Below, one piece after another: positions 10,050-16,566 of a stretch of 16,926 nt of DNA. The stretch is from assembly GCA_027596195.1 (NCBI GenBank), contig JADGJG010000536.1:1-16926 (forward strand), in the 5' to 3' direction. Source of the DNA: Podochytrium sp. JEL0797. Its lineage: Eukaryota > Chytridiomycota > Chytridiomycetes > Chytridiales > Chytriomycetaceae. The notes beneath the pieces are model-generated. The model ran no database searches and was not told the DNA's origin. It saw nothing but the letters and a program-made list of their open reading frames with translations. The position numbers and the translations under genes are program-made. How positions within the stretch are numbered: position 1 is the stretch's first letter; each line of letters opens with the position of its first letter.

Positions 10050-10971
10050 ATGGCATTGATCAGCTTCCACCGTTGCCAGCCACTCGTTCCTTACTCGCTG
10101 GGTCTTCAACTGCAACAGAAACTGGTCCAGCGACGCCTGGCGAACCCAACCCAACCCAACCTGCTGCTCCTTCTCCAACACACCCCCGTCTTCACTGCCG
10201 GCCGACGACTAAAGGGCTCTGCCTCTGCAGACGAAGCCGCCCGCATCAAAGCAAGTAAATAAGCACCCCATACGTTTGCATCCATACCCTTCAGCATCAG
10301 TAACCCTTCTCAAACCGTTCAGAAACCGGATTGACCATGTTCGAAACCGCCCGTGGCGGCCAAACCACGTTCCACGGACCAGGACAGCTCGTCGGATACC
10401 CGATCCTCGATCTGCGAACAATCCATCAGCTGAATCCAAGCACCGGTGTGAAGGAGCAACGACACGCGCCTGGAACCACGGTGCGCGGGTTCGTGGACGG
10501 ACTAGAAGAGGCCGTTATCCGTGCGTGCGGTGAATTCGGCATCACTGCGAAACGGACAGAGAATACAGGAGTATGGGCAAGCGAGGACCGAAAAGTGGCT
10601 GCATTGGGTGAGTGTTTGCTTACCAGAGACAGCGCCCACGGGACATCCTTATCGAAACAATCTCAGGTGTCCAAGTATCAAGATACATCACCTCCCATGG
10701 ATTCGCACTCAACTGCAACGTTGATTTGAGCTGTTTCGACGCGATTATTCCGTGCGGGTTGGTTGACAAGCAAGCGACTTCGTTGAGTCACGAGTTGAAA
10801 CTGCGGAATGGGCCTACGGCTCCCGAAATTACGGTTGATATGGCCATTCCGGCCGTAACGAAAGGATTCATGGAAGCGTTTGATGTGGAGATGATACCGT
10901 TGAGTGATTTGGACCCTGGTTTGGCGCAGGAGATTGACGAGTTGTTGCTCTCCGCAGAAGCAAAAGAATAA
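10050..10971 (+). CDS. lipB: Lipoyl(octanoyl) transferase (LipB/LIP2), 3 exons, 264 aa
   Basis: Exons: 10050-10254, 10323-10607, 10667-10971; introns of 68 nt (GTAAAT...TTCAG) and 59 nt (GTGAGT...CTCAG) close to a 265-codon frame ending in TAA. The enzyme transfers octanoyl from acyl carrier protein to a lipoyl-domain lysine, the first step of lipoate synthesis, in fungal mitochondria. Family motifs in order: LLLQHTPVFTAGRR (about 40-53), RGGQTTFHGPGQLVGYPILD (about 80-99), a GVWASEDRKVAALG.QVSRYI block (about 155-170) with the catalytic Lys, HGFALNCNVDL, and IPCGLVD (about 197) with the catalytic Cys. Both catalytic residues are present. The conserved domain begins within about 12 residues of the chosen ATG, so the targeting presequence is very short or an upstream exon is missed. 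A decayed copy of its last exon lies at 13921-14085. Confidence 0.95.
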
Positions 10972-11121
10972 AACAAACCGACGGCTGCATACATGATTCA
11001 TTTCCATTACGACGTGAGTTGGGCGTAATCAGTTCACCCTCTTCCTGGCACAGTATAGCAGAACTCTTTCCCCCATATTGATCACAATAAACGGAATATT
11101 TAAAGATTTTTAAATTTACTT
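10972..11121. other. lipB 3' flank
   Basis: This 150-bp region follows the lipB stop and is AT-rich towards its end (ATATTTAAAGATTTTTAAAT near 11096-11115). It holds a polyadenylation hexamer and no coding signal. Confidence 0.45.
11086..11091 (+). terminator. Probable polyadenylation signal AATAAA of lipB
   Basis: AATAAA occurs 115 nt after the lipB stop codon, in an AT-rich tail. Position and sequence suit a fungal 3' end signal. Confidence 0.5.
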
Positions 11122-11215
11122 ATGCATGGTCTCGACCACTGAACTACCACACGAGTCCACGCTTGTCAATGGGAGTACCACTTTCGTCCCCCTCGTCCAT
11201 AGTTTGACTGATGGA
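11122..11215 (-). pseudogene. Unknown-family fragment, copy D
   Basis: On the minus strand, in one frame, this reads VVLPLTSVDSCGSSVVETM, a close match to AVVLPLANVDLCGSSVAETV in copy A (about 1960-1905). The match spans only some 70 nt clearly, fading upstream to about 11215. It is all that remains of the family in the first duplication unit, placed between lipB and the ABC remnant exactly where copies B and C stand in the second unit. Confidence 0.6.
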
Positions 11216-11373
11216 TGAGCCAATCAAAGGAAGAAAAAAAGATTCTGAATTTTTTGCTTTGTTCCTAGTCACTTCCGAGCTGTTCGCGTAATTCGTTCCC
11301 CACAATTTCTTGGTTATAGCGTCGTTCCCTGCTCTGGAGTGAGAAAACTTAAAAACTCGCCCCACTTCTTCAG

Positions 11374-11580
11374 ACTTCTCTCCCCGAATACGAAACCTTC
11401 AGTTTCTGGTACAATCCGGAAATCGTGGAAATAAACTTGTTTGTGCGTGATTTCTTTTGTTGTGTCGCGTTGGCAGGCAAATCGGATGGACTGAACAAAG
11501 TCGCTTCAGCTATACTCGGGAGTGTGTTTGGGATCAGTCATATTAAGAGGAATGTAAAGGAAGCTCACAGTAGACACTAA
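11374..11580 (+). CDS. Possible orphan terminal exon (69 codons) of unknown gene
   Basis: After a pyrimidine-rich CCCCACTTCTTCAG acceptor, the frame from 11374 is open to TAA at 11578-11580. It reads TSLPEYETFSFWYNPEIVEI, then NLFVRDFFCCVALAGK, KVASAILGSVFGISHIK and HSRH. The composition is strongly protein-like, although there is no ATG. A possible preceding exon ends at about 11337 (donor GTGAGA) with frame ...FLGYSVVPCSG; the implied intron of about 36 nt would be shorter than any other here. No family recognised. It may be a real short gene or the 3' end of another decayed one. Confidence 0.35.
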   Translation, partial: TSLPEYETFSFWYNPEIVEINLFVRDFFCCVALAGKSDGLNKVASAILGSVFGISHIKRNVKEAHSRH

Positions 11581-11794
11581 GTACTAGTGGAGGAAGATTG
11601 GACTTGGATTGTCGCGTGGATCGACATGTTTGATTTTTGGGAAATGAATAATGGAAAGGTTATATTTTTTATGCACCCTATGAGATGTTGGGGTTATTTA
11701 AATTGTAATGAATTCGTAGGCAAATAGATAACAGTTGAGGAAGAAGCGGGAGAAGTGAAAGAACCTTTCGGAGTCGGTGCAACAAAGGCAAATA

Positions 11795-12020
11795 GTGTCA
11801 TAACGGGATCGGTGGGTCAACGAATTAGCGTGTTTGGCGCAAGTGATGGTCAAGAAACCAATCGCGTGGTCCTCCTTCTGAAACCATCGTCTGAAAACCA
11901 CTTTCGATCACGAAACCGCAGTCTTGTGATGAATGATTTGGCTGGTGGTCGAAGTAGATTCTCCTGGTGTGTTGCTGGACGGCAAGAATTCCAAGTTTTC
12001 GCAAGATGGGGGGAGAGGGG
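11795..12020 (+). pseudogene. ABC transporter C-terminal remnant 1
   Basis: The plus strand here matches the NBD2 end of the intact ABCC gene. TCGGTGGGTCAACGAATTAG and the following GTTTGGCGCAAGTGATGGTC correspond to the signature region ([18 protein letters not shown]) with a 2-nt loss that breaks the frame. After AAGAAACC the copy jumps to the H-loop region, losing Walker B and two intron positions. Further on VEVDSPGVLLDGKNSKFSQ matches [20 protein letters not shown] long frame at 11755-12258 crosses it but is not the ABC frame. It converges tail-to-tail on the P450 stop at 12090. Confidence 0.8.
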
Positions 12021-14995: not shown

Positions 14996-15540
14996 TTTTG
15001 GGCTCGAAGGCACTCTGAACCAAAGAAAACTTCTTGAACTTTTCAAAAAGGAAAAACATGAGAAGTATGCAGGAGTTTTTGGGTTGAGTCTGAGGAGGTT
15101 TCGGATCATGTCCTTGTCTTGCTCTGATATGCTGTTTCTCTGTTCTGTATCACAAAAGGAAATCAAAAGGAATTGGTTCATGCCAGTTTGCGATACTCAC
15201 GCAAAAAAACTCACCTGCTGGATATTTTTCGCAAACGTCACAAATAATCTTCCTCATTGATTCGGCCCTTCCGGAACGCGCGCGAGGATTCGTTTCAAAT
15301 ATGCGGCCACGACATTGACGACTGGAGAAATAAGTTTGGGTATGACACCCGTTGGTGGATTTGCTTCCCGGCCCGCGCGCGAGAATTTTGTTCAAATAAT
15401 CTGCCAGAGTTTGTTTTTTTTGACGGCGCTCAAACCCCCTTAAAATCGAGATGGCGCGAATCTCTTTTGGGTTCGGAGGCACTCGAAACCATGATGCAGA
15501 CTGCTTGAATTCTTGAAGAAAAAAGCGTGAGAAGTATGAA
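14996..15540 (-). pseudogene. Unknown-family copy C (5' exons only, in tandem with copy B)
   Basis: Copy C carries LISPVVNVVAAYLKRILARV in one frame and ESMRKIICDVCEKYPAG in another. A donor (GCAG|GTGAGTTTT, about 15215) and an acceptor near 15154 (GTGATACAG) follow, joining in phase to EQRNSISEQDKDMIRNLLRL. It stops matching after the LNP codons, where sequence equivalent to the upstream flank of the repeat restarts (CATACTTCTCA at about 15067, matching about 15539). So B and C form a tandem repeat offset by about 472 bp, with C lacking the 3' part of the family. Confidence 0.6.
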
Positions 15541-15572
15541 GGAAATGTTGAAAACGCTTAAAATTATCATTT

Positions 15573-15720
15573 TCACTTCAAAATTAAAAATTTGCAGCAC
15601 TTAATTACCTCGTCCAGATCGGTTTGACTAACGCTAGTTCCAATCAAAGCAATATCATCAGCGACAGTTTTCCCGTATTCAGAATAGAAAATGTCGTTGC
15701 TGTTTGATGATATTTTAGCA
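15573..15720 (-). pseudogene. Short open segment with a reverse-transcriptase-like ADD motif (weak)
   Basis: The minus strand reads NDIFYSEYGKTVADDIALIG, then TSVSQTDLDEVI and a stop at 15573. ADDIALIG resembles the palm motif of LINE-type reverse transcriptases (usually F/Y-A-D-D-I-x-L). The aromatic residue before ADD is missing and nothing else of a polymerase is visible in about 50 codons. It could be a retroelement scrap inserted between copy C and the ABC remnant, or chance. Confidence 0.25.
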
Positions 15721-15734
15721 AAACAACCGAGACG

Positions 15735-15900
15735 CGGGAAGATCGCAACTTGTATAGCGTCGTCAGGTCTTCATTCTGAAACCATTGGTTGAACACGATT
15801 ATCGTGTTTTTTGAGATGAATGCTTTTGCTGTTGGCCCGAGTACGATGCTCCTGGTGTGTTGCTGGCCGGAGAAGGTTTCCGCAAGATTGTGGGGCAAGC
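15735..15900 (+). pseudogene. ABC transporter C-terminal remnant 2
   Basis: The plus strand matches the end of the intact ABCC gene. CGCGGGAAGATCGC corresponds to the REDFA codons, GGTTGAACACGATTATCG to the H-loop RLNTII codons, and GAGTACGATGCTCCTGGTGT plus TTGCTGGC to [10 protein letters not shown]. Stops and frame changes destroy it. It shares TCTGAAACCAT just before the H-loop with remnant 1 but not with the intact gene, showing the two remnants are closest relatives. It ends about 40 bp before the tail of the P450 pseudogene. Confidence 0.8.
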
Positions 15901-15937
15901 AAAAAACCAAATTTCATATTCAAAAACATTCCCACAT

Positions 15938-16566
15938 TCATACTCTGCGCTGCAAAAACACCGGAAGATCCAGACACTCCAACGCCGTCGCTTCCTTGAC
16001 CATCAACGGCGCGGATGAAGCGTGGGCGACCAAGGCTTTCGATGAGAAGCTTGCGGTTGTATTTCCAGGACTCGAGATGGGCGTTGAAGAGGATTCCCTT
16101 CTCGAACAGGTTCACCTGTTTCAAGGCTTTTTTCATAATCAACACACGCGATCGAATCTTCAAGCAATAAAAGGAATCACATACCTTCTGGATCCGCGTA
16201 TCTTTTGTTCAAATTGCTGTTTGTGAAAATCGAGCGGACTGCACTGCCACGCACAACGTAGATTTTTTTGCCGAGCACATTGGCCTCCACAATATCGCAG
16301 TTCTTGCCTTCAAACGCAAGTGGAAAGAATACTCTTGTGCCCTTCATGACAGCGACCAAATGGCCAATGATAGGAAACCCATTTGCAGCCAAAGGCGGGG
16401 ATCCTGTCACCATGGTATCAGAGATGTGAGAATGGCAAGGGAAGGAAACCACACGGAACAAACCCTTGATCGTTGTGGTCTTGTGCAGGAGAATCCACAC
16501 AGTCGAGAAGAAGACGAGAGTTGCCGCAGCAACAACCAAGGGTCCCTTGGCAACAACGATGTCCAT
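15938..16566 (-). pseudogene. Cytochrome P450 pseudogene with large internal deletion
   Basis: Exon 1 (16566-16464) and exon 2 (16403-16185, 219 nt, same length as the parent) are open and encode anchor TLVFFSTVWILLHK and hinge GSPPLAANGFPIIGHL; exon 3 starts at 16126. At 16015-16011 the sequence jumps from RPRFIR to the C-terminal tail, skipping the equivalent of about 12168-13244 of the intact gene. That removes the I-helix, ExxR and haem loop, and the tail is entered out of frame. The parent's stop is still present at 15940-15938, but the fused frame runs on to 15771. No functional P450 can be made; a short membrane-anchored N-terminal peptide is conceivable. Confidence 0.9.

Follow-up and report, generated by a model that had tools for sequence, protein, structure and literature searches.

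A contig of the chytrid Podochytrium sp. JEL0797 appears to carry the same four elements twice, in the same order and orientation: lipB, a gene of a family at first left unnamed (here called RhoGAP-like), the tail of an ABC transporter gene and a P450 gene. A sequence-only reading took this for a tandem segmental duplication, which raises the question of whether the series was copied as one block and, if so, what it held at that time and what became of each copy. The DNA analysed (the window) comprises all 16,926 bases of contig C486, which belongs to an assembly of 24.4 Mb and 995 contigs, and the structure of the second unit is read from this assembly alone. From left to right, the window carries a GST gene (690-1364, plus strand), a RhoGAP-like relic (about 1812-2449, minus strand), an intact MRP-type ABC gene (about 2.6-7.8 kb, minus strand), an acyl-CoA dehydrogenase gene (minus strand), lipB and then the two units. 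Scans with Rfam and for tRNA found nothing in it. A detoxification cluster of the GST, MRP-type ABC and P450 genes on this contig was considered and is not claimed here; the acyl-CoA dehydrogenase and lipB genes interrupt them. The last 99 bases (16828-16926) are a repeat that also occurs at the extreme ends of contigs C995 and C978 and within several others. Literature searches, at the level of search listings, found no description of this locus.

Two collinear units

Comparison of the window with itself by blastn revealed four direct collinear repeats: 10790-10912 with 13955-14080 in lipB (75% identity, 89.9 bits), 11924-11982 with 15811-15870 in the ABC tail (83%, 59.0 bits), 12069-12167 with 15916-16015 at the P450 3′ end (87%, 111 bits), and 13237-13764 with 16008-16535 in the P450 5′ part (92%, 673 bits). 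As a control for chance, unit 2 was shuffled 200 times with dinucleotides preserved. The top chance score was 31.2 bits, and three of the four element pairs (lipB, ABC tail and P450) exceed all shuffles. The RhoGAP-like pair reached at most 26.6 bits when unit 1 was matched directly with unit 2, under the chance level; a small targeted comparison gave it an E-value of 0.02, with the reversed-sequence control at 0.49. Three short intergenic pieces are also alignable between the units (10979-11012 with 14106-14140, 11068-11119 with 14383-14437, and 12069-12089 with 15916-15938), each equalled by none of 300 mononucleotide shuffles.

Thus, the proposal that four elements found twice in one order and on the same strands cannot be due to chance is upheld, three pairs by the shuffles and the fourth by copies on other contigs. 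The self-alignment suggested as its check yielded collinear segments for lipB, the ABC tail and P450 but none directly for the RhoGAP-like pair, which the copies on C185 and C415 bridge. Order and strands were as first read, while several limits had to be moved: the ABC similarity starts at 11809 and 15766, not 11795 and 15735; the second RhoGAP-like relic, first placed at 14464-15540, extends to 15763; and detectable P450 homology ends at 16535, not 16566.

Separate insertions of fragments at nearby sites, for example by a mobile element, could be imagined instead of a tandem duplication. RhoGAP-like fragments do occur elsewhere, on C185, C415 and C221 and at left in the window, and a dispersed repeat lies at the contig end. 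Such insertions would, however, have had to reproduce the identical order and strand of four elements together with aligned intergenic pieces, and sequence comparisons of the unit ends showed no matching repeats there. We regard this explanation as barely credible.

Unit boundaries and the type of duplication

Defined by detectable homology, unit 1 spans 10745-13764 and unit 2 spans 13921-16535. Between them lies a junction segment of 156 bases (13765-13920), for which our search, within its sensitivity, detected no relative elsewhere in the genome. The intact P450 has its first codons at this junction. Homology starts in the middle of lipB (10745/13921) and stops in P450 exon 0 (13764/16535); beyond these ends the alignments are no better than those of shuffled sequences, 244 of 300 and 137 of 300 of which reach the observed score. 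Since older neutral sequence within the unit remains alignable at 75-83%, these sharp ends are probably the breakpoints themselves. If so, the second lipB would have been incomplete from the outset, and the junction would have determined where the surviving P450 begins at its 5′ side. Unit 2 is not a retrocopy, because P450 introns 1 and 2 are both present in it. Together, the collinear repeats, the shuffles, the bridging copies on C185 and C415 and the sharp ends of homology bear out the first reading: as judged from the alignments, this is a tandem segmental duplication of at least three thousand bases, beginning midway through lipB and ending at the start of the P450 gene.

The intact original of lipB, encoding lipoyl(octanoyl) transferase, lies at 10051-10971 on the plus strand and matches NCBIfam TIGR00214 over the cut-off. 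The deposited model (P0092) has only 191 aa and probably lacks the first exon, which we read by eye at 10051-10255. Unit 2 retains only the end of the last exon (13921-14080, plus strand), recognised by its match to intact lipB and containing stops. No other copy was found in the genome besides this locus and the remnant, so the remnant is a local copy, one that was probably truncated at birth.

The idea that each unit kept different genes needs changing. What is divided between the units is the RhoGAP-like gene. Unit 1 keeps lipB and P450, and we found no gene intact in unit 2, where stops interrupt the lipB piece, 1,069 bases are missing from the middle of P450, and the RhoGAP-like gene has lost its first exon and carries in-frame stops.

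In Obelidium mucronatum, lipB is on a contig of 195,288 bases, and two P450s (P0005 and P0006) and a RhoGAP-like protein (P0090) are encoded on a contig or contigs of 326,308 bases, probably a single one. This layout speaks against an old linkage of lipB and P450, unless the contigs are broken between them. No undivided unit was seen in another species, the comparison being made through proteins and the contigs that encode them.

A RhoGAP-like gene divided between the units

Direct alignment of the RhoGAP-like pair failed to exceed chance, and for this reason we used copies on other contigs as bridges. The unit 1 relic (11125-11749, minus strand) comprises the first exon (11322-11654) and short pieces of later exons. 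It matches copy D of contig C185 in four ordered pieces (L019 2341-2397, 2853-2897, 3122-3454 and 3624-3682), one of which reaches only an E-value of 0.011. The unit 2 relic (14456-15763, minus strand) comprises the middle and last exons and is collinear with C185 copy E (4237 to 5199) and with the C415 copy; in-frame stops occur in two of its three matched stretches. Unit 1 has the first exon, which unit 2 lacks, and the reverse is true of the middle exons. By their collinearity with these copies, the two relics are largely complementary parts of one gene.

Within the unit 2 relic there is an internal partial duplication, 14714-14962 resembling 15081-15344, and the right half of the relic is nearest to C185 copy D (78% over 481 columns). 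Because of these two features, the relic may be two tandem copies fused. Contig C185 itself (L019 2322-3454, 4237-5640 and 8848-9080) holds two RhoGAP-like copies in tandem, together with part of a third in inverted orientation.

At the sensitivity of our search, relatives of this family were found only in three genera of Chytridiales. It is predicted to have a RhoGAP fold. A structure model agreed with that fold, at a mean pLDDT of 56.5, which is low confidence, and the top Foldseek matches were RhoGAP proteins, with E-values of 0.011 or worse. Sequence-only searches of the PDB gave weak matches. Compared with RhoGAP proper (Pfam PF00620), family member P0089 scores 20.2 bits, below the gathering cut-off of 24.5, and PF00620 matches two of four members at E-values up to 1. 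R117, invariant in all four sequences (P0088 being a partial model), sits where the Pfam match begins and may correspond to the RhoGAP catalytic arginine finger.

An ABC fragment probably dead before it was copied

The unit 1 ABC relic (11809-12009, plus strand) is the 3′ end of an ABCC/MRP-type transporter gene and matches 2691-2811 and 3058-3110 of the window in inverted orientation. Its counterpart in unit 2 (15766-15888, plus strand), also an ABC 3′ end, is recognised by its match to the unit 1 tail. At the DNA level, the closest relative of both tails is the window's own ABC gene, which runs in the opposite orientation. We compared them with two intact ABC genes, the window's own and one on C279. 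Four lesions are common to both tails and absent from both intact genes: a 2-base frameshifting insertion, a 19-base gap, an extra A and the loss of the last codons. The first two are the same under two MAFFT settings. Past the lost end, both tails give way to the same non-ABC sequence, which reaches the P450 3′ end. Given these shared lesions, it is most parsimonious to suppose that the ABC piece had died before the duplication.

The sequence-only reading was that the ancestral unit seems to have held an ABC gene convergent with P450; taken as a working gene, it would have been lost separately in each copy. Part of this stands: the ABC 3′ piece faced the P450 3′ end before the duplication, as it does in both units today, and C459, which also bears a close P450 paralogue, carries a further ABC fragment. 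The lesions common to both pieces and missing from both intact genes nevertheless indicate decay before copying, and we consider the loss of a living gene from each unit highly unlikely. A working ABC-P450 pair further back in time is possible. The only other hint of such an old neighbourhood is the fragment on C459 (L053 about 1257-1612, C459 11183-11510), which shares 71% identity with the window's ABC over 45 aa and lies about 6 kb from the P450 paralogue, itself 65% identical over the main exon. It was the one ABC fragment found when contigs with P450 paralogues were compared with the window by DNA (C733 and C459 whole; C700, C604 and C67 in part), and no lipB or RhoGAP-like match was found beside the paralogues in these comparisons.

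Divergence, probable conversion and deletion in the P450 copies

Unit 1 carries a complete P450 gene (HDU98_008893, 12090-13780, minus strand) whose 500-aa product, identical to the deposited protein, has a full-length domain (Pfam p450, 240.9 bits; positions 6-456 of 462 in profile PF00067). In the unit 2 remnant (15916-16535, minus strand), exons 0-2 are fused to the last 25 codons, and the counterpart of unit 1 positions 12168-13236 is missing. These 1,069 bases lie between microhomologies: GCGGA is common to 12160-12167 and 13237-13244 in unit 1 and to the deletion junction at 16008-16015.

In exons 0-1, 20 of 93 third positions differ between the copies (dS 0.336, dN 0.059, dN/dS about 0.17 over 93 codons), and the last 25 codons contain seven silent and two replacement codon differences (dS 0.53, dN 0.036, dN/dS about 0.07), the dS estimates in both cases resting on few codons. 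Since dN/dS is lower than expected had one copy long been unconstrained, both copies were probably working genes for a long time.

Other parts of the P450 copies are far more alike. Exon 2 differs at one of 118 sites and the two introns at two of 109, short gaps aside, so that exon 2 and the introns are 98-99% alike between the units. Set against the 20 of 93 third positions in exons 0-1, only 2 of 147 sites differ in the introns and exon 2 third positions (p = 1.6e-7, in a test picked after the pattern had been seen). The introns of more distant P450 paralogues are not alignable, and constraint therefore does not explain the likeness of these. Such local near-identity suggests patchy gene conversion between the copies. 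A single tract is insufficient, because intron 1 is highly similar and both of its flanking exons are diverged; intron 1 needs a tract of its own. A probable second tract, covering exon 2 and intron 2, is the very-high-identity stretch at 16016-16186 (minus strand), which adjoins the deletion junction.

Two separate events might also account for this mixture of ages: an old one that duplicated the lipB, RhoGAP-like and ABC pieces, and a far more recent one that duplicated the 5′ part of P450. The likeness of exon 2 and the introns (98-99%), next to 75% in lipB, is what such a history would leave. Yet P450 exons 0-1 and the C-terminal codons match the rest in age, with dS values of 0.34 and 0.53 in line with the 75% and 83% identity of lipB and ABC, and in both units the ABC tail continues into the P450 3′ end through aligned intergenic sequence. 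Exon silent sites, lipB and ABC thus roughly agree in age, and only the P450 introns and exon 2 look much younger. Two events are unlikely, and we favour one duplication followed by conversion.

The near-identical exon 2 tract stops exactly at the deletion junction. A single repair event would explain this coincidence: a break in the second P450, by then old but still functional, would have been repaired from its neighbour through exon 2 and intron 2, with a jump at GCGGA to the 3′ end, so that one event both converted and killed the gene. We put this forward tentatively, as a possibility that is more doubtful than not.

Other duplicated blocks in the genome

A second duplicated block is formed by the GST gene and a RhoGAP-like fragment (window 570-2346), which recur on C221 (L050 3890-5019). 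The two GSTs are 85.7% identical over 833 columns and were the only copies found in the genome search. Of the 7,981 matches to a combined lipB-GST protein query, the 120 listed include no Obelidium GST, which is uninformative on its absence. Also on C221, a 1.9-kb block with two open frames occurs twice in tandem with identical translations (L050 5097-6987 and 6990-8880), as either a very recent duplication or an assembly artefact. On C56, at about 26-35 kb, two near-identical ABC transporter genes lie about 5.4 kb apart.

Probable history of the locus and its meaning

The account that we consider very probable joins direct tandem duplication, long dual function of P450, patchy conversion, deletion and complementary decay of the RhoGAP-like gene. 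In an ancestor of Podochytrium sp. JEL0797, DNA-mediated direct tandem copying would have taken in everything from the last exon of lipB to P450 exon 0; the alignments speak firmly for the copying, its dating being a separate matter. At that time the unit would have contained the 3′ end of lipB, one RhoGAP-like gene or possibly a tandem pair, an ABC 3′ fragment that, by its lesions, would already have been dead, and P450. The breakpoint would have truncated the second lipB at its 5′ end. Both P450 copies, to judge by dN/dS, would long have been under purifying selection; later conversion would have brought their exon 2 and introns close to identity, and a deletion of 1,069 bases between microhomologies, visible at its junction, would have killed the second copy, presumably in that order. 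Different deletions reduced the two RhoGAP-like copies to the largely complementary parts observed.

Tandem segmental duplication with subsequent pseudogenisation and gene conversion between tandem paralogues are general classes of event, and conversion and decay are ordinary. Our locus resembles the first class in its adjacent copies of the same order and orientation, its breakpoints inside genes and the decay of one copy; it is of the same kind and differs in detail, through the dead ABC fragment that was carried along and the patchwork P450 copy. With the second class it shares tracts of local near-identity in otherwise diverged copies; in this locus, direct comparison of the copies places one tract right beside a deletion junction and another wholly within an intron. 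The locus is, in kind, an ordinary duplication with decay.

As such, it provides a dated and well-bounded example of the decay of a tandem copy in an early-diverging fungus, whose course includes truncation at birth, a dead passenger fragment and the long coexistence of two P450s before one was lost. It also illustrates how lesions common to two copies can settle whether a gene pair of an inferred ancestral unit was alive, and it has led to a likely, predicted fold for a chytrid protein family with no Pfam or NCBIfam match over the cut-off. What stands out most is that conversion and deletion may have been coupled in the second P450: if a single repair event did produce both, the locus would preserve an instance of gene loss coupled to conversion between tandem paralogues.
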